Shown here piece by piece: positions 14,370-34,101 of a stretch of DNA of 64,000 bases. The stretch covers positions 5,905,199-5,969,198 of the forward strand of contig CP000875.1 in the NCBI GenBank assembly GCA_000018565.1, written 5' to 3'. The translations under genes were made by a program, and so were the position numbers. The notes under the pieces were generated by a model that saw only the letters and a list, made by a program, of their open reading frames with translations, did no database searches and was not told where the DNA came from. Numbering within the stretch: position 1 is the first letter of the stretch; each line of letters begins with the position of its first letter. The stretch comes from Herpetosiphon aurantiacus DSM 785 (lineage in GTDB: Bacteria > Chloroflexota > Chloroflexia > Chloroflexales > Herpetosiphonaceae).

Positions 14370-16886
14370 TTAGCTGCGAATTTGCACGCCCAATTCGCGT
14401 TCTAGCTGCTTGAGCAACTTTTCGCGGGTTTTGAGCAAATCTTTGTCGGCTAAGGTGCGGTCAGGGGCGCGGAAGCGTAGGCGGAAGGCCAAACTGCGCT
14501 GACCAGCTGGAATCGGCGAGCCAGTGTAGACATCGAACAGCCGTACATCTTCTAAGAATTCGCCACCATACTGCTTGATGGTTTTGGCAATCAGGTCAGC
14601 GGCTAGCTCATCGTTGGCAACCAAGGCCAAATCTTGTACCGTGGCGGGGAAGCGCGAGATGCTGGTATATTTGGTTGGTTGGCTGACCTTGAGCAATTGA
14701 TCAACGCTTAGTTCAGCGATACAAACTCGTGGCACGCTAAAGCCAAAGCGATCGCGCACCAAAGGATGTAACTCACCAAACACCCCAACCACCACTTCAT
14801 CAACCACGATTTTAGCGCTGCGGCCTGGGTGCAAACGCTCGTCGCTGGCAACTTGGAAGCTGGCGCGATCACGCAAGCCGTGGCGACGCAACACTTCTTC
14901 AATCACGCCTTTGAGGTCGAAGAAATCGAAGCCTTCGGGGCTTGGTTGGCTCCAAGTGCTTGGTTGGCGCGTGCCAGCCAAAATAAGTGCCAAGTTGCGT
15001 GGCTCGTCGGGTAGCAATTGGCCCGCCACAGGGTGGAACACCGCGCCAATTTCAAACAAGGCTACCCGTTCGCGTTCGCGCAAATCGCCGACCACAATGC
15101 TCAACAATTCGGGCAAGATAGAGCGGCGCATCACTGATCGCTCAGGAGTTAATGGGTTTTCCAAGCGCACAAATTGTTCAGCATTTGCCCCATTTTCGCT
15201 TACATATACCGAATTTTGCAAGCTGTCGTTGCTAAGCGAGTAGCTGATTGCTTCATCCAAACCTGCGGCTACCAACATATCGCGCAAGCGTTCGGTGGCC
15301 TCGAACAACGGATTAGCACGTTGGGTTGGCAGCGTGTCGGCCATCAAGGCTTCGGGGATGCGATCATAGCCATACATACGGGCCACATCTTCGAGCAAAT
15401 CGGCTTCGATTTCAACATCGGTGCGATGGGCTGGCACTAGCACATGCAAGGCAGGGCCACGGCTTGATTCAACTACCGCGCATTCAAAACCCAAACGACT
15501 TAGTAAATTGGCAACTTCGGCTTGCTCAAGATCGATCCCCAAAATGCGTTTTACTTCGCCCAAGGCTAGCTCAATTTCGCGGCGGGCGAAGGGCACAGGG
15601 CAAACATCAACTAATCCATTGGCAATCGTGCCGCCAGCTAATTGTTGAATTAAGTTCAACCCGCGAATCGTTGTGCGTGGTGGCAGCGTTGGATCAACGC
15701 CTTTCTCAAAGCGTTTGGAAGCTTCGGAGAAAAGCTTGAAATGTTGGGCCGTGCGGCGAATCGCAATCGGATTCCACAAGGCTGCTTCATATAACACATT
15801 GACCGTGCTATCGCTAATTTCCGAGGCTGCGCCACCCATAACCCCAGCCAAACTTGAAGGGCCATTGGGATCGGCCACAACTGTATCGATTGGCCGTAAT
15901 TCGCGCACAACATGATCAAGCGTTTCGAGCTTTTCGCCTGCGGCGGCTGGTCGAATAATCAAGCGCCCTTGGGCCACCTGATCTGCATCGAAGGCATGGC
16001 TTGGTTCGCCCAGTTCCAACATTACATAATTGGTAATATCAGCAATGTTGTTAATTGGGCGCTGGCCTGCCAAGCGTAAGCGCCGTTGCATCCACCACGG
16101 CGAGGGGGCAATCTTCACCCCTTCGATCAAGCCAGCGACAAAGCGTGGGCAAATGTTTGAATCAACAATCTCAACCTGAATTTTATCGGCGATGGCTGGG
16201 CCATTGGTTGGCAAATCAAAACTGGGCATGCGCAATTCGGCCCCAGTTAAGGCCGCAACTTCCCGCGCAACCCCCAGAATGCTTAGGGTATGGGCATAGT
16301 TAGGAGTCGTTTCAATTTCTAAAACGGCATCGCCCCAATAATCGGCCAAGGGCGTGCCAACTGGCGCATCATCGGGCAAGAAGATAATGCCATCATGTTC
16401 ATCGGAGAGCGCCAGCTCCATTTCTGAGCAAACCATGCCCTCGGACGGTACGCCGCGCAATTTGGTTGGTTTGAGCGTCAACCATTGGCGGGTTTCGCTA
16501 TGACCATCGAGCAGGCGAGCGCCTTTAGTGGCTAGCACCACTTTTTGGCCGCTCATGCCAAGCTCGATATTCGGTGCGCCGGTCACCACGGTCAATTCGC
16601 GGCCTTCGCCATAGGCAATGCGTGGTAATTTTAGGCGTTCAGCGTTGGGGTGCGGCTGCACATCGACGATCTGGCCCACGAAAATCGTCTCGCGATCCCA
16701 CGGAATATAATCTGGTGGGGTGGCGCTGCTCAAATCTGGTGCCCACGCTGAGCCGGCAGGAGCTTGCAGCCCGACATAATCGATGCTGGCAACTTCCAAG
16801 CCCGCCCGCGTGAGACGCTCGGCCAATTCTTCTGGGCTAATCGTTATATCAACAAATTCGCGTAACCACGAAAGCGGTACTCGCAT
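14370..16886 (-). CDS. pheT: Phenylalanyl-tRNA synthetase beta subunit
   Basis: The beta chain of the (alpha-beta)2 enzyme, 838 residues, slightly longer than the usual about 800. Visible parts in order: N-terminal MRVPLSWLREFVDI, a tRNA-binding/EMAP-like OB fold (FVGQIVDVQPHPNAERLKL, VVTGAPNI), the B3/B4 editing domain (about 210-400), B5 (IDLEQAEVANLLSRLGF), a catalytic-like core with MRRSILPELL, and a C-terminal FDX-ACB domain (YTSISRFPATVQDLALV through LAFRLRFRAPDRTL). pheS is absent on both sides, so the two subunits are encoded apart. Confidence 0.95.
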   Translation of the reverse strand: MRVPLSWLREFVDITISPEELAERLTRAGLEVASIDYVGLQAPAGSAWAPDLSSATPPDYIPWDRETIFVGQIVDVQPHPNAERLKLPRIAYGEGRELTVVTGAPNIELGMSGQKVVLATKGARLLDGHSETRQWLTLKPTKLRGVPSEGMVCSEMELALSDEHDGIIFLPDDAPVGTPLADYWGDAVLEIETTPNYAHTLSILGVAREVAALTGAELRMPSFDLPTNGPAIADKIQVEIVDSNICPRFVAGLIEGVKIAPSPWWMQRRLRLAGQRPINNIADITNYVMLELGEPSHAFDADQVAQGRLIIRPAAAGEKLETLDHVVRELRPIDTVVADPNGPSSLAGVMGGAASEISDSTVNVLYEAALWNPIAIRRTAQHFKLFSEASKRFEKGVDPTLPPRTTIRGLNLIQQLAGGTIANGLVDVCPVPFARREIELALGEVKRILGIDLEQAEVANLLSRLGFECAVVESSRGPALHVLVPAHRTDVEIEADLLEDVARMYGYDRIPEALMADTLPTQRANPLFEATERLRDMLVAAGLDEAISYSLSNDSLQNSVYVSENGANAEQFVRLENPLTPERSVMRRSILPELLSIVVGDLRERERVALFEIGAVFHPVAGQLLPDEPRNLALILAGTRQPSTWSQPSPEGFDFFDLKGVIEEVLRRHGLRDRASFQVASDERLHPGRSAKIVVDEVVVGVFGELHPLVRDRFGFSVPRVCIAELSVDQLLKVSQPTKYTSISRFPATVQDLALVANDELAADLIAKTIKQYGGEFLEDVRLFDVYTGSPIPAGQRSLAFRLRFRAPDRTLADKDLLKTREKLLKQLERELGVQIRS

Positions 16887-23816: not shown

Positions 23817-26249
23817 TTAGATCCGCGTCATTTCGCGGCGAACCCGTATAACGTGAACGAACATCGTCAGGGCGAAGAGCACAAAGCCTGCTGCTGGAAT
23901 ACCCATATTCGTAGCTGGGTTGCTAACCCCAACATCGGTTGCGCCAGTGCCATCGCCACTACCTTGGCCGCCGCCAATGCCAGTATTTGGCGTGACGGTT
24001 GCTGGGTTGGCAGTTGCAGCACCGCCGCCGACATTGCCCTTAGGAACTGCTGTGGCGCTGACTGCAGGAGCTTCGCCGACCACCAAAACACTCGAAATAT
24101 TCGAATAGATTGGCTGGGCCAAGCCAGTGAAATTCAACTGAGCTTGGTTGACGATCCGCGTTTGAGCAGCCACACCATCTTTGATCTTGACTGGAATCAT
24201 GATTGTCAAGGTTTGGCCTGCTGGCAAGACCCCGACCCGCACGGTAATTTGGTTGCCTTGTTGTTCAACCCGTGCATTTTGGTCGCTGACCTTGATTGGG
24301 CCATTGGTTTCCAAGTTGCTTGGCAATTGATCAACCACCACGACATCACGCATCGTACCAGCATTCAACGAATTAGTTGGGCTGATAATCGTGATTGTGT
24401 AAATCAAACTTTCGCCTGCAAAGCGGCTGCCCCAATCGCTCTTCTTTTGGAACTGCAAGCCAGTCACGATTGGATCGGTGACGAAGCCAGCTGGATTGGT
24501 TGGCGTTGCTGTAGCTGGCGCGGGTGCATTGGTTGGTTGGCTGCCAGCTGGTGCATTGGTAGCCGAAGGCACTGGTGCGCCTGGCCGTGGCGTTGCACTT
24601 GGATTTGAACCACCGCCTGGGCGCTGAGTTGCCGAAGGCACTGGCACACCTGGGCGTGGCGTTGCGCTTGGGTTGCTTGGTGGAACAACCGTGGCAACAG
24701 GCACATTGGTTGCTGGCACTGGCGTAATATCAGGCCGTGGTGTGTTGCTTGGCTGATTCGGCTGTGGTGTGTTGCTTGGCTGATTTGGCCGTGGCGTATT
24801 GCTCGGCTGGTTTGGCCGTGGCGTATTGCTCGGCTGATTTGGCCGTGGCGTATTGCTCGGCTGGTTTGGCCGTGGCGTATTGCTTGGACCAGTCGTAACA
24901 GGTATGCTGGTTGAGCCACCAGGTGTGTTGGTTGCACCAATTGGTGTGACTGGTGTGCTGGTAGGTGGAGTATTGGTTACACCAATTGGCGTAATCGGAG
25001 TATTGGTCACAATTGGCGTAATTGGTGTATTGGTCACAACAATTGGCGTGAAGCTTGGGCCAGCTGTGCCAAGCGTGCTGGTTGGTAAGGTATCAGGCAC
25101 AATCACGGTATCGCTTGCTTGCAACGTGCGATTGGCCGCCGTGGCACTAACGATATTAACGATATTCGTGCCCAATGCCACGCTGGCATTAACTTGGACT
25201 TGAATCGTGACCACAATTGGGTTACCTGCACTGACCGTCCCATTACAGTTGACGGTTGTGCCACCAACGCAGGTCGCTGTGCCAAGTTGTTGAACTGCAA
25301 TAAAGGTTACCTGGCTTGGTAATGGGTCGCTAATGCTGACTGAGCGCGAAGTTTGCCCATCGCCATTATCTTGGAAACTTACCGTGATGATATAACTAAA
25401 TGTTTCGCCAGGCTGCACGAGCGCCCGCGAACTACTCTTGCCCACCGCGATTGGCTCATCGGCTGGCAAGGTGGTTTCGGTTGCCGTGGCAATATCAGTT
25501 GGTAGGGTTGGAACTGGCGTACAACTTGCAACCAAACAATCAATGGTTGGCGTTGCTGGGGTCAGTGTAACCGGACCAGTGATTGTGCCCGTTGGTGTTT
25601 CATCAGGTGGAATGGTATCGGTTGGTGGAATGACAATCGTTGGTGGTGTTGCACATGGATCAGGCGTTTGGGCTAAAGGCCGATGCAAACGCGTGCTTCC
25701 ACTCATCCCACCACGGGGTATCGTTGGGCTTACAACACTGGTTTCAGTTGGTGTGATGATCGTCGTAGCCGTTGGTGCGCTCGGCGTGTCTGTCACACTT
25801 GGGGTGTCGGTGACGCTCGGCGTATCGGTCACAGCTGGTGTATTGGTTGACGTAATAATTGTCGTTGGCGTATCCGTGACACTTGGCGTATCGGTCGGTG
25901 TGCCAGGTGTGCCAGGTGTAGGATAGGTTGTGGCGGTTTCGGTTGGTGTTTCGGTTGGCTCAAACGTTGGACACGGCGTGACAAGCGGTGTTTCGGTTGG
26001 CACCGGATAGGTCTGGGTGGCGGTTGGTGGTAACGGCGTAACCGGTGTTGCTGCTGACGTTGGCCGAATCGTGGCTTGCGCCTGAGCATTAAATGGAAAA
26101 ATAGCACTGCTAATCGCAGCTAACAAAGGGGTTGCCATCATAACGATGCTAACAACCAGCGCTGTTAACTCCCAGATTGTCCAGCGAACTTTGCCTTTAC
26201 CTCGTTCGCGGAGGGATGTCGGGCGTTGCCGACGAAAAAAAGATTTCAT
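23817..26249 (-). CDS. Large threonine/proline-rich surface protein with DUF11-like domains
   Basis: 810 residues. There is an N-terminal membrane/signal segment (IWELTALVVSIVMMATPLLAA, about 27-47) and a long Thr/Pro spacer (TDTPSVTDTP repeats). A DUF11/isopeptide-like beta domain lies at about 275-385 (VQPGETFSYIITV, VSISDPLPSQVTFIAVQQ). A second Pro-rich spacer has five or more NTPRPNQPS repeats, and a second DUF11-like domain follows at about 610-720 (SLIYTITI, VVVDQLPSNLETNG, LPAGQTLTIMIPVKI). A C-terminal helix (AAGFVLFALTMFVHVI) ends in a basic tail. Expected on the outer surface. The downstream gene order DUF11 protein then sortase suggests anchoring. Confidence 0.8.
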   Translation of the reverse strand: MKSFFRRQRPTSLRERGKGKVRWTIWELTALVVSIVMMATPLLAAISSAIFPFNAQAQATIRPTSAATPVTPLPPTATQTYPVPTETPLVTPCPTFEPTETPTETATTYPTPGTPGTPTDTPSVTDTPTTIITSTNTPAVTDTPSVTDTPSVTDTPSAPTATTIITPTETSVVSPTIPRGGMSGSTRLHRPLAQTPDPCATPPTIVIPPTDTIPPDETPTGTITGPVTLTPATPTIDCLVASCTPVPTLPTDIATATETTLPADEPIAVGKSSSRALVQPGETFSYIITVSFQDNGDGQTSRSVSISDPLPSQVTFIAVQQLGTATCVGGTTVNCNGTVSAGNPIVVTIQVQVNASVALGTNIVNIVSATAANRTLQASDTVIVPDTLPTSTLGTAGPSFTPIVVTNTPITPIVTNTPITPIGVTNTPPTSTPVTPIGATNTPGGSTSIPVTTGPSNTPRPNQPSNTPRPNQPSNTPRPNQPSNTPRPNQPSNTPQPNQPSNTPRPDITPVPATNVPVATVVPPSNPSATPRPGVPVPSATQRPGGGSNPSATPRPGAPVPSATNAPAGSQPTNAPAPATATPTNPAGFVTDPIVTGLQFQKKSDWGSRFAGESLIYTITIISPTNSLNAGTMRDVVVVDQLPSNLETNGPIKVSDQNARVEQQGNQITVRVGVLPAGQTLTIMIPVKIKDGVAAQTRIVNQAQLNFTGLAQPIYSNISSVLVVGEAPAVSATAVPKGNVGGGAATANPATVTPNTGIGGGQGSGDGTGATDVGVSNPATNMGIPAAGFVLFALTMFVHVIRVRREMTRI
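24745..24890. repeat. 27-bp in-frame tandem repeat inside the DUF11 gene
   Basis: About five tandem copies of a 27-bp unit encode NTPRPNQPS (one copy NTPQPNQPS). The copies differ at silent positions only slightly, so the array is recently expanded. It is protein-coding, not a CRISPR array. Confidence 0.85.
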
Positions 26250-26279
26250 GCGAAACCCCTCGATCTATTGCCTCCGCAA

Positions 26280-27188
26280 TTAAGAGGAGAGCGCTGCCTG
26301 ATCAATCAGCCGAGCCTTAACTACCAACCGCTGGGTGTCCCAAGCGGTACATGTGATCATGGTGATAATTGCTTGCTCGGTTGGATACATAACTTCGACT
26401 TGGTTTGGCCAAACTTGTTGAATTGTCTGGACTTGATAATGATAACGGGTATCGGCAGTTTCGACGTAGATATCTTGACCAATCTGAAGTTCATTCAGGC
26501 GGGCGAAAACACTACCGCGAATCCCTGCATGCCCCGCAAAAACGCTATTCCCTTTGCCTGGTAAGGCCGTGCCATGATGATAACCCACAGCATAATCGGC
26601 AACTTCCCAAATGCCATCGCGCAGAAAAACTTCACGCACCGGACTATCAAGCTCCATTGTTGGCACGATCATCCGTTTGGGAACAAAGCTCATGGGATCA
26701 GGCGTTGGGGTTGGCGATGCAGGTGGCAAGATAAACGCCTGAGCAGGCACAAGATAATCGGGTGCAGCCGCGCTGATGGCGGGTGCAATCACTGGTAATT
26801 GTTGGCCTAGCACTCGATCAAGTTCAGCGGCACTAGCTCCTGGTGCGAGTGCTTCCCAAGCCACTGCTGGAGCCGCCGGATTGTTACGAGCATACCACCA
26901 ATCGCGTCCGTAGATGTTGACCACCCAATAACCAAAAAAGATGATTACCCCAACAATCAACAAACGTTCCGAGCGCACTAAAATAGCGTCAAGCACCCCA
27001 CGGAAACGATAACCCTGAAGTGCAGTTTTCCGCTCTTCTTTGAGCGAACGGAGTTGGGCTGGCCGATGCAATGACGAACGCACTGGTGGTGGTGCTGCCA
27101 GCAATTCTTGAAGCAAGCCCAAATCGTCGTGTGTCGAATCGATGGTTGGCGGTTGTACCACTACAAACTCGTACTCTATATGCTTCAA
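26280..27188 (-). CDS. Sortase
   Basis: A membrane-anchored transpeptidase that cuts a sorting signal and joins a surface protein to an acceptor. 302 residues. One membrane helix (LLIVGVIIFFGYWVVNIYG, about 75-93) is followed by a Pro-rich stalk and a sortase barrel from about 165. The catalytic His is in VFAGHAGIRGS, the Cys in IITMITCTAWDT and the Arg in TQRLVVKAR. The TTG start (TTGAAGCAT) follows AGGGA. The DUF11 protein is encoded 30 bases downstream and is its likely substrate. Class (D/E-like) cannot be settled by eye. Confidence 0.88.
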   Translation of the reverse strand: MKHIEYEFVVVQPPTIDSTHDDLGLLQELLAAPPPVRSSLHRPAQLRSLKEERKTALQGYRFRGVLDAILVRSERLLIVGVIIFFGYWVVNIYGRDWWYARNNPAAPAVAWEALAPGASAAELDRVLGQQLPVIAPAISAAAPDYLVPAQAFILPPASPTPTPDPMSFVPKRMIVPTMELDSPVREVFLRDGIWEVADYAVGYHHGTALPGKGNSVFAGHAGIRGSVFARLNELQIGQDIYVETADTRYHYQVQTIQQVWPNQVEVMYPTEQAIITMITCTAWDTQRLVVKARLIDQAALSS

Positions 27189-27301: not shown

Positions 27302-30300
27302 TTAATAATCTGCGATGGTCAATGGTAGGTAAAGCTGCGGCGCAATCGCGGTTACGCTAATCGTCACTGTCGCACTTAGGGTTTGATTCAAGCTCAAATT
27401 GCGCACCTGATAGTTAAATGAATCAAGCCCATTATAAACGGGATCAGGCGTGTAGCGAACGCTGCGTTGATCTGCATCGAGCCATACTTGGCCATGTTGT
27501 GGTTGTTCAAGGCTGATAATTTGGCTAAAATCGGCTTGATCATTCGCCAATGGAGTTAGCCGATTAGCCTGTGAATATTGCAAAACTTCGTAATAATCGG
27601 CCTGTGGTTGCCAAGCATTGTTGGTTGGTAAGGGCAAACGCAAGGCCGGATCACCAAAAAAGCTGAAGGTGTCGAGCAAATCGGGCGAGATATTGGCCGC
27701 TGCTAAATCAAGCTTGCCTTGAATTGTTGCTGGCCCAACCAAGCGCCAACCATCGTTGATAATCGAGTTTACAAACCCACGATTCAGGTAATCGTGGCCA
27801 TGGGCGATGCCCAAACCACTAGCCGCCCACATACCAACTGCTCCATGCTCAGGCTGCAACACCAGCATTTCGGCCAACGATTCAAGGTCATTTTGTTGAT
27901 AATGGCCAGCATAGCAACTCAACGAGAGCATCAACGGCAAGGCGCTATTGCTTAAACTTGCCACCGATTGCTGGTTGAAAATCGTCGGATCAGCCCAAAC
28001 ATCGATGCCCGCATGGCCAACATAATTGACCAAAAATTGACCATTATTGATCTGATTAACGATTTCTGCCCGAAAATTCGTCAGATTGGTATTCGCTGTG
28101 TAGTACAACTGCTGATCATCAACCGTTGGCGGTAAAATTTCCACCACCTCATTTGAAAGCCACGGAAAATCGCCCGATACATCTGGATCATCGGCGATAA
28201 ACAACAGCTTGTTCAGCCAATCGGCGTTGCTGGGCGTGGCTTCGTAACTTAATATTTTCGCAACTACATGTTCAACATCGCTCAGCGAACGCGCTGGAAT
28301 GCGCCCCAAGAACAAATCGGGCAAAGTATCGTTGCCAGCAACCGTTACATAGCGATTGTCGGCGGCTGTTTCGCGCAACCACGGGTCAACATCGGCCAAA
28401 TAGGGTGGAATAAAATTGGTCACGGGTTGTCCAATAATATCAGCATAATCGTGCGGATCTGCCGTGCCATCGCCAACTAACACCACAAAACTAGGCGCTG
28501 GTGCTTGCCAATTATGATAGGCATACTTGATAAAATCAGCGATCGCCTGTTGATCAACCCGCCCATCGCCAAATTGATCGTAAATCTGCTGCACATCAAT
28601 TAATAATGGCTTGAGGCCTTGGCTGGCGCGTTGGGTAATCAATGGTTGCAGTGCATCGCTCCAGCTCGAGGAGTTGGCTGGGTTATAGCTAATCAGCAAA
28701 TAATCGGCTTGCTGGCTGGTGCTGCTCAAATCGGGCTGACTAAACCAAACGCTGCTCAACGGTGTTTGGCGTTGGCTCTGCACAAGGTAGCGGCGATTGC
28801 CACTGGTTTGCCAGCTTAATTGGCCTTGCTGCAAATTCCAGCCAATCAAGCGGCGCGGAGCCAAGGGCGTTTGCACATCGAATAGCAACGGATTTTCGCT
28901 GATGATATTGCTAATGCTTTGGTTGGCTTGGCTGCTTGACCATTGTAATTGGCCCGCAACTGCCTGCGCTTGACGCTGGTAATCTAGCTCAACCCAATCG
29001 AGAAAACTGGTTTCGCGCTCGGTACTCATTGGGGTAATTGTGAGTTGGTTGGTTGCGCTAAGCCAGCCACTTGGCAGGTTAATCGTTGACTCAAGCAGTT
29101 GAAAGCCGGTTATTGTGACGGTTGTGAGCAAACGATTGTTCAGGCGAATTTCGGCTTGATGCCGATTGCCAAGCTTGCCGCCATGCAAGCGCAACCGCAA
29201 GCGGGCTGGCTGATCGAAGCGAGTTGCATTATCCAAATTCCAATTAATTTGCAAGGGCTGAGCGCTTTGGCCGGAGCCTGGGCTATACCAATATTGCCAC
29301 CACCAACGATTTGTGCCGCTGGCCGGAAAGGCGCTCAGATAGAGTTTTTGTTCTTCCAAGCGCAAGGTCTCGCTATAGTAGCTCAGGCTTGGGTTGGCCG
29401 AATTGACTGATTCGCTAACCAACACATTGCCTGGTTGCTGTCCATTCCAGCGCACAATCACGCTCCCTTGCAGGCTTTGATCACGATTGTAGGGCGGTAG
29501 ATAAAAAATCATGCCCGTGGCAGTCAGCAACCGTGGCAGTTGATTGCGCCCTTGCCATAGTTGTAAATTAGCCGATTGATTGAGCCATTGGCTTGGCACG
29601 CCCGCCGCCTGCAAATCGCTCCAACGAATTTCGCTGATGCCTGGGTTGGCAAAACTCACTCGCACTCCATTGGTTACTGGCGTGGTTGTGGCAAAGGCTG
29701 GGCGTAATGCTGGATTTTGTAGATCGCTGGGATTGAGCACTTGCTGACGTAGCAGTTCGTTCCAAAATGGATCAGCTCGCAAGCTGGGTTGCTCGGTACT
29801 TGCCACAAATTCTAGCGCTATGTCGATTGAGCTTGGTACAACTATTTGCTGTTTGCTTGGTTGCCATTGCGCCCCGAAAATAGTTAATGGCACAAGTTGT
29901 TGCTCCCGCACTTGGACGCTCTGACCAAGGTTGGCCCATGTGGTTGGATATTGGGCTTGTTTGACGGCTACACTTGGTGCGCTTAGCGCTATGGCCTTGC
30001 TTGGCGCGAGTGGATCAACCTGCCAACCACTGCTAGGAGTGAGGCTAAGTTGTTGCTGATAGTGTTGTAGTTGTTGAGGATTAACCGATTTTAGTCTGAG
30101 TTGGTAGCCTGCTGGCACAACTAACCAGTGGCTTGAACGCGGCAAGGCCGGCTGATCAGGTGTGGCATCATTTTGCCAGCCTGCAATGTTGATGCTATTG
30201 GGTTGCAGGGTTGGTTTGGGTAATTGCACGTTGATATGCAGTTGCTGATCGTGGCGTTGTAGCGTGAGTGTCGCCGTGGTAATTTGGGCAATCACGGGCT

Positions 30301-30355
30301 GTCGAATCAACATCAGCGACACAACCAAACAGCCAATTAACCAACGTTGTAGCAT
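27302..30355 (-). CDS. Exported C25 (gingipain-like) cysteine protease
   Basis: About 1,017 residues. A signal peptide (LQRWLIGCLVVSLMLIRQPVIAQ) leads into a propeptide/beta-rich N-terminal region (about 30-560). The peptidase C25 domain has its catalytic His in FLVNYVGHAGIDVW (about residue 778) and Cys in LMLSLSCYAGHY (about 812), with GRIPARSLSDVEHVV and FVVLVGDGTADPHDY before them. A C-terminal cadherin/Ig-like segment ends the protein (NGLDSFNYQVRNLSLN). The ORF opens at 30430, but ATG 30355 has GAGG before it and starts the signal peptide. The SD lies in the stop region of the upstream S26 gene, two bases away. Last gene of the peptide cluster; it may process the exported peptide or be a passenger. 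Confidence 0.82.
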   Translation of the reverse strand: MLQRWLIGCLVVSLMLIRQPVIAQITTATLTLQRHDQQLHINVQLPKPTLQPNSINIAGWQNDATPDQPALPRSSHWLVVPAGYQLRLKSVNPQQLQHYQQQLSLTPSSGWQVDPLAPSKAIALSAPSVAVKQAQYPTTWANLGQSVQVREQQLVPLTIFGAQWQPSKQQIVVPSSIDIALEFVASTEQPSLRADPFWNELLRQQVLNPSDLQNPALRPAFATTTPVTNGVRVSFANPGISEIRWSDLQAAGVPSQWLNQSANLQLWQGRNQLPRLLTATGMIFYLPPYNRDQSLQGSVIVRWNGQQPGNVLVSESVNSANPSLSYYSETLRLEEQKLYLSAFPASGTNRWWWQYWYSPGSGQSAQPLQINWNLDNATRFDQPARLRLRLHGGKLGNRHQAEIRLNNRLLTTVTITGFQLLESTINLPSGWLSATNQLTITPMSTERETSFLDWVELDYQRQAQAVAGQLQWSSSQANQSISNIISENPLLFDVQTPLAPRRLIGWNLQQGQLSWQTSGNRRYLVQSQRQTPLSSVWFSQPDLSSTSQQADYLLISYNPANSSSWSDALQPLITQRASQGLKPLLIDVQQIYDQFGDGRVDQQAIADFIKYAYHNWQAPAPSFVVLVGDGTADPHDYADIIGQPVTNFIPPYLADVDPWLRETAADNRYVTVAGNDTLPDLFLGRIPARSLSDVEHVVAKILSYEATPSNADWLNKLLFIADDPDVSGDFPWLSNEVVEILPPTVDDQQLYYTANTNLTNFRAEIVNQINNGQFLVNYVGHAGIDVWADPTIFNQQSVASLSNSALPLMLSLSCYAGHYQQNDLESLAEMLVLQPEHGAVGMWAASGLGIAHGHDYLNRGFVNSIINDGWRLVGPATIQGKLDLAAANISPDLLDTFSFFGDPALRLPLPTNNAWQPQADYYEVLQYSQANRLTPLANDQADFSQIISLEQPQHGQVWLDADQRSVRYTPDPVYNGLDSFNYQVRNLSLNQTLSATVTISVTAIAPQLYLPLTIADY

Positions 30356-30357
30356 AC

Positions 30358-30798
30358 TTACCTCAAATGATGAATTAACCAACGCCGTGCATGGCGCAAC
30401 CATGCCAAACTCCATTGATACCAACGCCACCCGTTATTCATGCTCAATGATTTTTCGGCAGCCTGCCAGGTTACTGCTTGAGCCACAATTGCCGAGCGTT
30501 CGATCCAGCCATCGAAATAGGGACAGGCATCGCCAGCAATCAAATAGTGTGCTTGTTTACGCCAAAGCAAGCGATGAATGACCACCCGTTGACCAACTTT
30601 GGCCAAAACCACGCTGCCGAGTGGGATACGATTGGGCAAGCCTGCAATTGTTACTAACGTTTGGTCGGGCAAGATGGGATGCATGCTGCGGCCCGCGACT
30701 TGAAGCTGTAATTGCCCACCAGCCTGCGCTACGATCTGCGCCAAATCATAGGCCTCGGCGGCACTCAGCACTCGTTCAGCCAAGCTGTTGGCGCACAT
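30358..30798 (-). CDS. S24/S26 signal-peptidase-like protein
   Basis: 146 residues. The catalytic serine motif is AGRSMHPIL (S38), followed by LGSVVLAKVGQRVVIHRLLWR with H75 where bacterial type-I signal peptidases have Lys, so it resembles the Ser-His type. GDACPYFDGWI matches the conserved GD(N) box. There is no clear N-terminal membrane anchor; the C-terminal 40 residues are Trp/Arg-rich. Small S24/S26 proteins of this kind are known from peptide-natural-product clusters. Its frame overlaps the HPr-kinase-like gene by 23 bases, and its stop abuts the protease gene. Confidence 0.75.
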   Translation of the reverse strand: MCANSLAERVLSAAEAYDLAQIVAQAGGQLQLQVAGRSMHPILPDQTLVTIAGLPNRIPLGSVVLAKVGQRVVIHRLLWRKQAHYLIAGDACPYFDGWIERSAIVAQAVTWQAAEKSLSMNNGWRWYQWSLAWLRHARRWLIHHLR

Positions 30799-31620: not shown

Positions 31621-31791
31621 TTAGGTAAAACAGGGGGTAATTTTACAATTTGCGCCCGATGTAGCACTGCTGGTCGTGCGACAAACCGCCAACACATCTT
31701 CTTTGATCCGCAAGCCAACCGTTTCGATCGTTGGTTTGACATAGGCTTTGTGTGGCTTGCGCTCGGGCTGGCTTGATGATTGTTGTGCCAT
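31621..31791 (-). CDS. Putative RiPP precursor peptide, 56 residues
   Basis: A short ORF read by hand. Leader part: MAQQSSSQPERKPHK then AYVKPTIETVGLRIKED, containing the YxxP motif (Y17, P20) that peptide-binding PqqD-like proteins recognise in lasso and related leaders. C-terminal part (about 33-56): VLAVCRTTSSATSG then ANCKITPCFT, with cysteines at 37, 49 and 54 and eight Ser/Thr from residue 39. The SD GGGAGG sits seven bases before the ATG, the best in the cluster. It lies 22 bases after the radical SAM gene and 14 bases before the HPr-kinase-like gene. The modification type is unknown; thioether links are the first guess. Confidence 0.78.
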   Translation of the reverse strand: MAQQSSSQPERKPHKAYVKPTIETVGLRIKEDVLAVCRTTSSATSGANCKITPCFT

Positions 31792-31813
31792 GAGACATCC
31801 TCCCGGTATGAGG

Positions 31814-32929
31814 TTAGCGAACCTCTAGACAAATTGCATTATTGATCCAACGGTCGGCATTTTCGGCAAAAGCAGAAACTCGCGCCTTCGTACTATCACA
31901 CACCCATTCAATGGGGCGATTTTCCAACGTGTTACGTTCTAAGGCCGACCAACCTGGACAATTGGTACAGACCAAAGACATTTCGCAGGAGTGGCAGGCA
32001 GTGGCTTCGGTATTGCGGGTTTCGCGCACATCGGCCAAGTAGCCATCCCAGACTTCCATAAAATTGGTTGCTCGCCAATCGACAGCGCGGGTACGGGTAA
32101 TCATACACGGGCTGACCATCCCATAGGCATCGACATGGCCTGATTTATTGGCAGCGCCACAGGTGAAGGTTTTTTCGCCACCCTTCATTTGGTAGCCCAA
32201 AAACCCGTTGCAGTAATCTTGCCATTCTTCAACCCGCTGTGGATCGAGTTTTTCAATTTCGATCAGCTCTTCGGGGCTAAGCCGCAAGGTGGTGGGAAAA
32301 CGATCGCCATTCAAGCGTGGGTGAATCATGCCATCGTAGCGGAAATCCCAGCCATAGTGCTCGGCAACGGCCTTCATTGCCAAAAATTCGTGCGAGTTGA
32401 TGTTGAGCAAGACGGTTTTGAGCACCACATCAATCTCATATTCGGCCAACAGCGCCAAACCTTGCATACACTTGGCAAACGAGCCAGGCACGCGGGTTAC
32501 GGTTTCGTAGGTTTCGGCGGTGGCTCCATACAAGGTTACTTCGACCAAATGGGGCTTGTATTGGCTCAAAAATTCGGCGCGTTGGCGCGTGATCATGGTG
32601 GCGTTGCTATAGATCGAAATCACAAAGCCAAGATTACGAGCGTAGAGATACAGCTCTTCAAAATCGCGCCGCACCATAATTTCGCCGCCAGTCAGCAGCA
32701 ACCAAAGCGTGCCAGCTGCTGCCATTTCGTCGAAAAGCCGTTTGCATTCGTCGGTCGAAAGCTCACGTTGGCGGGCAGCTTGGTGATTAACTGGTAAGTT
32801 GATATAGCAATGCTGACAATTTAAATTGCAGCGCTCGGTTAACTCGAACGACATCGAGACCGGCACGCGACCTAAAGCTGCTAATCGAACATTGAACGCC
32901 GCATCGTTGGTTTCAGCACATAATTCCAT
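31814..32929 (-). CDS. Radical SAM/SPASM peptide-modifying enzyme
   Basis: 371 residues. The radical SAM cluster is C34-C38-C41 in TERCNLNCQHCYINLP, followed by LLTGGEIMVRRDF (GGE motif). The C-terminal SPASM domain shows CGAANKSGHVDAYGMVSPC (about 255-273, a CX12GX4C pattern), then CHSCEMSLVCTNC (about 312-325) and a final Cys in EWVCDSTKA (about 343), enough ligands for two auxiliary Fe-S clusters. Relatives cut C-H bonds on peptide substrates to make thioether, C-C or epimer products. It starts two bases after the PqqD-like gene stop, with AGGAGG inside that gene. Confidence 0.88.
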   Translation of the reverse strand: MELCAETNDAAFNVRLAALGRVPVSMSFELTERCNLNCQHCYINLPVNHQAARQRELSTDECKRLFDEMAAAGTLWLLLTGGEIMVRRDFEELYLYARNLGFVISIYSNATMITRQRAEFLSQYKPHLVEVTLYGATAETYETVTRVPGSFAKCMQGLALLAEYEIDVVLKTVLLNINSHEFLAMKAVAEHYGWDFRYDGMIHPRLNGDRFPTTLRLSPEELIEIEKLDPQRVEEWQDYCNGFLGYQMKGGEKTFTCGAANKSGHVDAYGMVSPCMITRTRAVDWRATNFMEVWDGYLADVRETRNTEATACHSCEMSLVCTNCPGWSALERNTLENRPIEWVCDSTKARVSAFAENADRWINNAICLEVR

Positions 32930-32931
32930 GC

Positions 32932-33228
32932 TTAGGCAACCTCCTGAATAACAGCGGCCTCAAGCATCGATTCCAACAACGGAATCAGATCGGCTTGGGC
33001 GGCCCGAGGCTCAACATCGTATTCAGCACACACGAGGTCGATCAATTCGGCTAGACTTTGGGGTGTAGCCAAAGCTTGCCAAACCAGCGCGGCAGTCTCG
33101 TTAAGGGCAAAAATAGCATTGAGGGCAGCGGTGTTTGGTCGCACAGGCACCAACACCGTTTCACTCCCAATGCTACGGGTAACAATCGCCGGATCACGGA
33201 CAAATCGTTGTGGAGCGTGCTCATTCAT
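32932..33228 (-). CDS. PqqD-like peptide chaperone (RRE domain)
   Basis: 98 residues from ATG 33228, the first gene of the peptide cluster. Sequence features of the PqqD fold: RFVRDPAIVTRSIGSETVLVP, then LNAIFALNETAALVWQAL, LAELIDLVCAEYDVE and a C-terminal helix LIPLLESMLEAAVIQ. PqqD-like RRE domains bind the leader of a precursor and present it to the radical SAM enzyme. The open frame to 33249 has no SD. A free-standing PqqD directly before a radical SAM/SPASM gene is the usual layout for RiPP clusters. Confidence 0.82.
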   Translation of the reverse strand: MNEHAPQRFVRDPAIVTRSIGSETVLVPVRPNTAALNAIFALNETAALVWQALATPQSLAELIDLVCAEYDVEPRAAQADLIPLLESMLEAAVIQEVA

Positions 33229-33335: not shown

Positions 33336-33995
33336 TTAGATTTGGGGTGGTGCGAGGCGAGCTTGCACCGCGAACAAGCGTAATTCAGCTTTATTGCCTA
33401 AACCTAATTTGCTATAAATATTGCGCAAGTGGGTTTTAATTGTTTCTTCGCTCAGAATTAATTGCTGAGCAATATCGCTGTTGCGCCGCCCTTCGGCTGC
33501 CAAGAAAAAGACTTGGCGTTCGCGTTCGGTCAAGGCATTCAGGGCATCGTTGGTTTTGGTCGAGACGGTTGGCTGTGGGCCTTCCAATAGTTGGCGCACA
33601 ACTTTTTGAGCAATTGGGCCAGCCAAAACTGTTTCACCTTGAGCAACTGCACTGATGTGGCTGATCAAGCGTGAGGGATCTTCGGTTTTGAGCACATAGC
33701 CAGCAGCCCCAGCGGCCAGCGATTGGCGAATCACATCGTTGGTGTCGTTGGCGGTCAACATCAACACGCGAGTGCGTGGCGACGCTTCCACAATGGAGCG
33801 ACAAACTTCATAGCCAGGCATATCGGGCAAGCTCACATCGAGCAAGGCCACATCAACAAATTGATCTTTAGCAACTACGGCAGCGTCGCGCCCATGCCCA
33901 AGCACGCCAACAACTTCCATCTCATCGTGGGTTTCGAGCAGGGCACGTACCCCTTCCCGAAACACCGGATGATCATCAACAATCAGGATCCGCAT
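33336..33995 (-). CDS. NarL/LuxR-type response regulator
   Basis: 219 residues from ATG 33995 (AAGGAG seven bases before). The receiver domain has MRILIVDDHPVFREG, the phospho-acceptor Asp in VALLDVSLPDMPG, MLTANDT and YVLKTED. The C-terminal LuxR helix-turn-helix has LTERERQVFFLAAEGRRNSDIAQQL and ETIKTHLRNIYSKLGLGNKAEL. It lies directly downstream of the histidine kinase and directly upstream of the peptide cluster on the same strand, so the cluster could be one of its targets; that is inference from position only. Confidence 0.9.
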   Translation of the reverse strand: MRILIVDDHPVFREGVRALLETHDEMEVVGVLGHGRDAAVVAKDQFVDVALLDVSLPDMPGYEVCRSIVEASPRTRVLMLTANDTNDVIRQSLAAGAAGYVLKTEDPSRLISHISAVAQGETVLAGPIAQKVVRQLLEGPQPTVSTKTNDALNALTERERQVFFLAAEGRRNSDIAQQLILSEETIKTHLRNIYSKLGLGNKAELRLFAVQARLAPPQI

Positions 33996-34101
33996 GGGGT
34001 ACTCCTTCTTCAGAACAGATGCGAAAACGGTCAAAAAATGGACAATGCATATCCACTCTAGGGGTGAGAGTTTACGAACAAAATTACGATTAATTGAGTA
34101 A

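Follow-up and report, generated by a model that had tools for sequence, protein, structure and literature searches.

A three-cysteine YxxP peptide encoded between a radical SAM enzyme and an HprK-like kinase in Herpetosiphon aurantiacus: a probable RiPP precursor

Introduction

The closest described relative of the system presented here is the LPP pathway. According to the available part of the LPP report (PMC13381572), the YxxP motif is the element bound by lasso and LPP RREs, LppK phosphorylates Ser3 of the LPP core, and LppS (S29/H68/D93) cleaves the RRE-bound YxxP leader. Judged by that part of the report, the gene set of our locus resembles an LPP cassette plus a radical SAM enzyme. A discrete RRE, a YxxP leader, an HprK-like kinase, an archaeal-type signal peptidase (SpI) with Ser/His/Asp residues and a variable core are common to both. 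The LPP core set, as described there (PMC13381572), is without a radical SAM enzyme, whereas the cassette of the window (the whole stretch of 64,000 nucleotides that was analysed) has one. The LPP leader consensus given in the same text is YxxPxVLxHQxIxFETxxS, compared with YxxPx[ILV]xx[VI]xL, read by eye, in the window and its relatives. The NTP transferase and the MsbA-like transporter described for LPP are not among the six operon proteins of the window, in which a domain scan found no transporter; one distant locus (L060) has an NTP_transf_5 protein and an ABC transporter.

Three further systems share parts of the gene set. The SynChlorMet cassette (TIGR04248-TIGR04251) presumably has PqqD-like, HprK-like and radical SAM/SPASM proteins in common with the window cassette, which differs in its single radical SAM enzyme, in having no fusion and in its Y-x-x-P leader. 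Membership in this family was rejected: the window scores 18.4, 14, 83.5 and 71.5 bits for ScmC, ScmD, ScmE and ScmF, with cut-offs of 125, 100, 400 and 400 bits, respectively. Sactipeptides and ranthipeptides (subtilosin AlbA, SkfB, PapB) likewise combine a radical SAM/SPASM enzyme with a Cys-bearing core, to which the window adds a separate RRE, a YxxP leader, HprK and SpI. Paeninodin-type lasso clusters, in the part of their description available, share the [Y/W]xxP leader, the discrete RRE and the HprK-like kinase; the window operon is without their cyclase and B2 peptidase and has a radical SAM enzyme instead. No report of the cassette was found among the matches listed in a literature search, which covered few subscription papers; the 2022 radical SAM RiPP atlas may include the enzyme group.

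Results and Discussion

The precursor gene and its operon

The sequence-only reading had proposed that a short ORF between the modifying enzyme and the kinase-like gene encodes a RiPP precursor. The ORF is present with the quoted sequence, and its position is borne out: on the minus strand, the radical SAM gene is followed after 22 nt by the precursor ORF and, after a further 14 nt, by the HprK-like gene. The GGGAGG element is located as described, although it is not the best Shine-Dalgarno sequence of the cluster, because the AGGAGGT of the radical SAM gene is a longer match. Y17-V-K-P20 was found in the leader, and the count of the last 20 residues gave three Cys and eight Ser/Thr. The order of the operon is PqqD-like RRE, radical SAM/SPASM enzyme, precursor, HprK-like kinase, SpI and secreted C25 peptidase. 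Neither SpI nor the C25 peptidase is named in the sequence-only reading. The coordinates are listed in Table 1.

Table 1. Features of the cassette and its flanks, in positions of the window.
Feature	Position	Strand	Basis
Sortase gene, downstream of C25	26280..27188	-	PF04203 in the window and in L042 12937-13845 (also G007); possible member of the system only
Secreted C25 (gingipain/PorU-like) cysteine peptidase; ATG next to SpI stop assumed	27302..30355	-	PF01364, 7e-93
ER/archaeal-type signal-peptidase-like protein (SpI), predicted leader peptidase	30358..30798	-	Pfam S24 just below cut-off
HprK-like kinase, 276 aa	30776..31606	-	Invariant motifs and AlphaFold2 model; Pfam HprK match below cut-off
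Precursor peptide gene, 56 aa plus stop	31621..31791	-	ORF list and conservation
Predicted core V36-T56 (cut after A35 favoured; alternative after D32)	31624..31686	-	Predicted from -3/-1 residues and from LPP spacing in the available part of the LPP report
Cys54, third invariant core Cys	31630..31632	-	Alignment
Cys49, second invariant core Cys	31645..31647	-	Alignment
Cys37, first invariant core Cys (residue 21 with Tyr17 = 1)	31681..31683	-	22/22
YxxP motif Y17-P20, predicted RRE-binding element of the leader	31732..31743	-	22/22 distinct precursors; role as given in the available part of PMC13381572
GGGAGG ribosome-binding site, 7 nt ahead of the precursor ATG	31799..31804	-	
Radical SAM/SPASM enzyme, 371 aa, predicted core-modifying	31814..32929	-	PF04055, 2.5e-19; SPASM 0.0049, below cut-off
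PqqD-like protein (RRE); ATG start assumed, ORF reaches 33249	32932..33228	-	PF05402, 8e-15
LuxR-type response regulator, upstream of the operon	33336..34034	-	PF00072 and PF00196 in the window and G007; possible member of the system only

Surface-type proteins were observed around several of these cassettes. In the window (23817-27188), genes for a sortase and for a Thr/Pro-rich protein of surface type come after the C25 gene, on its strand, and G007, a genome from a different genus of the family, likewise has a sortase and a similar ORF after its C25 gene. Upstream of the cassettes L054, L059, L061 and L150, the encoded proteins include some with a DUF11, lamin-tail or SdrD_B domain.

Conservation and distribution

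A search of 41 genomes yielded clear precursor orthologues in seven: the own genome, five congeners at 93-98% identity, and G007 at 56%. At E 1e-30, the radical SAM enzyme was detected in exactly these seven. The gene order in G007 is response regulator, PqqD, radical SAM enzyme, precursor, HprK, SpI, C25 and sortase. Compared to the window, the precursors of the five genus mates show 4-18 synonymous and 1-4 nonsynonymous changes, a pattern indicating that the peptide is under purifying selection. Stops, which would have spoken against the gene, were absent from the matched region in all six other genomes with an orthologue. Since synonymous changes dominate within the genus, internal stops are lacking and distant homologues occupy the equivalent operon slot, the ORF is more than a chance reading frame. 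It almost certainly encodes a genuine RiPP precursor. The family has no model in the Pfam and NCBIfam copies searched: none fits the window precursor or ten of its relatives, and two NCBIfam matches to unrelated models (E 0.14 and 0.16) were taken as chance.

A 19-row precursor profile matched 16 of 400 genomes of the phylum at E<=0.001; cassette genes lie beside the match in all 16. G087, which was found by its precursor, has a cassette with the layout of the window. The profiles were iterated, and the invariance of Tyr, Pro and Cys was thereby partly selected for; loci fetched by the enzyme alone therefore provide the cleaner test. A contig scan with an alignment of three radical SAM enzymes (window, G007, G087) gave 288 stretches with relatives, of which the best 80 were kept. 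Among these 80, nine loci outside Herpetosiphonaceae and G087 have a separate HprK and one radical SAM enzyme (L054-L057, L059-L062, L065). L058 is not counted, because it is the contig of G087, which had already been found by its precursor and used in the enzyme alignment. Eight of the nine contain a precursor ORF between the radical SAM and HprK genes, and in seven of these eight PqqD precedes the enzyme, L057 being cut by the contig edge. The records of the eight are titled Anaerolineaceae, Brevefilum, Anaerolineales and Chloroflexota, plus metagenome-assembled genomes (MAGs) named Bdellovibrio, Nitrospirae and 'bacterium'. The ninth, L065 (a Desulfocapsa MAG), has PqqD, radical SAM enzyme, HprK and SpI; its slot is without a precursor, and a two-Cys YxxP peptide is encoded upstream of PqqD. 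The gene set is shared by bacteria that are only distantly related, and the peptide has three Cys in each of the close members.

A contig scan with the precursor alone gave no match. Several weak precursor matches were discarded: L008-L022 after translation at the match, L026, L028-L033 and others on their E-values, G144 and G085 with no cassette in the part of the sequence examined, and L156 (G282) as a chance match on a 3.6 kb contig without a cassette gene. In G168, six type-1 precursor copies with near-identical cores were found, one in a cassette and five on other contigs, plus one SynChlorMet-like precursor. In the stretches fetched for the five extra copies (L144, L145, L147, L148, L149), no further cassette gene was found.

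Six loci are of SynChlorMet-like appearance. L063, L066, L067, L069 and L192 encode a fusion of radical SAM enzyme and HprK; four L063 proteins that were scanned stay below the Scm cut-offs, as do those of the window. L064 is similar but has no HprK in its contig piece. The precursors of L063, L064, L066 and L192 have a WxxP leader, three or four core Cys and a C-terminal Ser; for the fused-type loci L067 and L069 no precursor was found.

Anatomy of the peptide

Twenty-two distinct precursors were compared. L065, L217 and L222 (two, two and one core Cys, respectively), the SynChlorMet-like precursors (three to four Cys) and the five extra G168 copies were left out of these counts. YxxP is present in 22/22, the first Cys is residue 21 counted from the Tyr in 22/22, and the core contains exactly three Cys in 22/22, separated by spacers of 11-15 and 3-9 residues. 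In the 19-row alignment, only Y17, P20, C37, C49 and C54 are fully invariant. This combination of a conserved leader, a variable core and invariant Cys is the pattern that the sequence-only reading had expected in relatives of a true precursor, and it supports that reading. As is characteristic of RiPPs, a precursor of this kind adjoins a modifying enzyme. The assignment of Y17-x-x-P20 as the RRE-bound motif of lasso-type leaders, made by the same reading, agrees with the available part of PMC13381572.

Two positions of the leader bear on the cleavage site. Counted from the Tyr, position 16, the LPP cut position in the available part of the LPP report, is Ala, Ser or Thr in 19/22 precursors; the exceptions are the window and G007, which have Asp, and G087, which has Asn. 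The Asp of the window counts against the pathway proposed below. Position 19 is Ala, Gly, Ser or Thr in 20/22, each with Val or Ile at position 17 (by eye). Signal-peptidase cleavage sites follow a -3/-1 residue rule. Because positions 17 and 19 suit such a site, a cut between A35 and V36 (VLA|VC) is the favoured prediction.

The final residue is Ser or Thr in 14/22 precursors, compared to 22% within the cores. All seven precursors of a second group, SynChlorMet-like or variant, also end in Ser or Thr; this group includes L065, which is not SynChlorMet-like. The corresponding P values are 3.4e-5 and 2.1e-6 if the relatedness of the sequences is ignored. The remaining 8/22 precursors end in other residues.

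Modifying enzymes

The CxxxCxxC motif of the radical SAM enzyme (C34/C38/C41) is present in 18/18 homologues and seven Cys of the SPASM region are kept in 17-18/18. These are the residues expected of sactipeptide and ranthipeptide enzymes, with the Pfam SPASM match of the window protein staying below cut-off. The best solved relative is SkfB (2.7e-15). When compared with the NCBIfam models, the enzyme remained below the cut-off in the best 25 of 69 matches, and no known maturase model among them recognised it. The highest scores, all far below the cut-offs, were those of heme b synthase, followed by the mycofactocin maturase. Since the enzyme lies below every cut-off among these 25 matches, thioether formation is not fixed by homology. 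The PqqD-like protein very probably guides the modification of the precursor by the radical SAM enzyme.

The Walker A motif, D168 and GTPW of the kinase are invariant in 11 rows and kept in 17-18/18 of a larger set. A search with its AlphaFold2 model (pLDDT 74.6) gave the HprK/P structures 1kkl/1kkm as top Foldseek matches (E 1.9e-6), with TM values of 0.25-0.36 by query length and PEP carboxykinases close behind. By this model, the protein is predicted to adopt the HPr kinase fold. A profile search of solved sequences ranked ABC transporters above HprK because of the shared P-loop.

Peptidases

In SpI, S38/H75/D90 are invariant in 11/11 sequences. A profile search matched SEC11 (4.4e-12), and a fold search with the SpI model ranked LexA-type domains above signal peptidases. 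It is reasonably likely that SpI is the leader peptidase where it is present. The C25 peptidase scores 312 bits for PF01364 (cut-off 23) and has PorU as its best solved relative (2.2e-15); the catalytic His and Cys are kept in 15/15 cassette members. That it acts in the pathway appears somewhat more plausible than that it does not.

The distribution of the two peptidases was determined for 21 type-1 cassettes, genus mates being left out. Both are encoded nearby in 9/21. SpI occurs without C25 in 5/21 (L043, L056, L060, L062, L191), of which L056 ends at the contig edge. C25 occurs without SpI in 6/21 (L054, L057, L059, L150, L152, L154); L057 and L152 are cut upstream and L054 has 1.8 kb there. 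Neither was found in 1/21 (L153, cut downstream). According to this tally, one or both peptidases accompany each cassette that is not truncated. SpI itself is not universal, as it was not found beside the cassettes L054, L059, L150 and L154.

The SpI-like proteins of L060 (7205-8239) and L062 (7106-8140) carry a C-terminal GNAT acetyltransferase domain (PF00583). A short C-terminal [YF]LP[LIM] tail was noticed in 8/13 cassette C25 proteins examined (window, LYLPLTIADY; L042, L057, L059, L061, L150, L154, L155); of the other five, four are incomplete because the stretch ends within them, and L151 is without the tail. At L217, the C25 protein and a 1974-residue surface protein end in MYLPSVFRDSR and IYMPLIRFR. 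The tail is possibly a C-terminal sorting tag.

Proposed pathway and alternatives

Taken as a whole, we consider there to be a good probability that the 56-residue peptide is the precursor of a new radical-SAM-modified RiPP family processed by RRE, radical SAM enzyme, kinase and peptidases. The steps, their order and the cleavage site would, as we infer them, be as follows. The PqqD-like RRE would bind the YxxP leader and thereby hand the peptide over to the radical SAM/SPASM enzyme. This enzyme would most likely form thioethers between the three core Cys and carbon atoms of other residues. Phosphorylation of the core by the HprK-like kinase would most likely follow, possibly at the C-terminal Ser/Thr (Thr56 in the window). 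Thereafter, the RRE would present the leader to the SpI-like peptidase for a cut shortly before the first Cys, VLA|VC being the favoured site. Where SpI is lacking, the secreted C25 may cut the leader; where both are encoded, C25 probably acts on the peptide outside, by trimming it, or serves as its partner. The likely product is a thioether-bridged peptide, perhaps phosphorylated at a C-terminal Ser/Thr, released by SpI and/or C25.

Lasso kinases phosphorylate a C-terminal Ser. In our system, action of the kinase on the core is probable, and action on the C-terminal residue is a possibility that we rate a little below even. The roles of kinase and SpI are supported by the precedent of LppB, LppK and LppS, which in the available part of the LPP report serve as RRE, kinase and SpI on a YxxP precursor.

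The alternative that survives best concerns the chemistry. The ORF would still encode a precursor, with the radical SAM enzyme installing carbon-carbon crosslinks, epimers or a decarboxylation, while the Cys would be free, form a disulfide or bind metal. Radical SAM/SPASM enzymes have many reaction outcomes, the best (sub-threshold) NCBIfam scores point to heme b synthase and mycofactocin models, and metal binding would be feasible for an odd number of Cys. However, the three Cys are the only invariant residues of the core, and there is no invariant aromatic or other acceptor, as would be expected if the reaction were of the cyclophane type. We regard a non-thioether product as a serious but clearly less probable outcome and give modest preference to thioether formation on the core Cys, as suggested by the sequence pattern.

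It is improbable that the peptide is the precursor of a small redox cofactor like PQQ or mycofactocin, as the PqqD-like protein and the second-best score of the radical SAM enzyme, that for the mycofactocin maturase, might suggest. Apart from its Cys, the core varies among cassettes, unlike that of a cofactor precursor; moreover, G168 retains six copies, which lie on separate contigs and are nearly identical in the core, and a kinase plus peptidases suit a peptide product. A lasso peptide precursor, which the YxxP leader, PqqD-like RRE and HprK-like kinase common to lasso clusters would fit, is very improbable, given the three invariant core Cys and six operon proteins without an asparagine-synthetase-like macrolactam cyclase or a transglutaminase-type B2 peptidase domain. 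The chance that the ORF is spurious is negligible: it is short and overlapped by other frames, but its conservation, with mostly synonymous differences in the genus and homologues with ribosome-binding sites in the equivalent operon slot, already refutes this.

If the preferred reading of a RiPP precursor is correct, the cassette unites radical SAM chemistry with the maturation by kinase and signal peptidase just described for LPP. Its many natural variants are a test bed for how a single RRE and leader work with three different partners, namely radical SAM enzyme, kinase and peptidase.

C25 peptidases beside other cassettes

C25 was detected in 61 and PqqD in 109 of the 400 phylum genomes. 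Both lie within about 10 kb of each other in at least 18 of the 61 C25 genomes, namely seven Herpetosiphonaceae and G168, G236, G265, G306, G320, G334, G412, G418, G457, G467 and G489. The other 43/61, including most C25 genomes of the window's order, have no PqqD neighbour among the matches listed. Eight further C25 sites were examined, and partner genes were found at three of them and none at the other five. G265 has the order HprK-PqqD-rSAM-peptide-C25-SpI, with a two-Cys YxxP peptide that reads AMA-SSC; in G236, SpI-PqqD is flanked by C25 on either side; in G215, HprK and two C25 genes surround a lasso-like precursor and an Asn_synthase-domain protein. Furthermore, another contig of G320 has HprK-PqqD-rSAM-WxxP peptide-C25, and C25, a lasso-like precursor, HprK and PqqD occur together in G418.

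In a C25 tree of 35 hand-picked rows (15 cassette, 20 other), three label changes were counted, compared to a shuffled mean of 11.6, with two of the 'other' rows (G236, G265) turning out to adjoin partner genes. The cassette C25 proteins do not form a single supported clade in this tree.

A literature search found no printed report of a link between C25 and RRE/HprK RiPP cassettes, lasso-type included. C25 peptidases, a group familiar through the gingipains and the type IX sortase, may represent a new kind of RiPP partner. PorU joins its cargo by transpeptidation. As a dedicated partner, C25 could remove the leader outside the cell, or it could act as a transpeptidase and attach the peptide to a surface protein. 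Only tentatively do we extend the proposal to a new RiPP class, in which a three-thioether, C-terminally phosphorylated peptide would be made by RRE, radical SAM enzyme, HprK and SpI, with a dedicated C25 partner adopted by several YxxP/WxxP RiPP types, lasso included.

Two minor observations concern individual loci. In L219 and L223 (Chloroflexota), lasso-like precursors adjoin HprK and C25, in L219 together with an Asn_synthase-domain protein. L214 of G236 encodes, at 16123-16266, a 48-residue YxxP peptide without Cys, which adjoins an ABC-transporter-like ORF and the C25, SpI and PqqD genes and is perhaps another type of RiPP.
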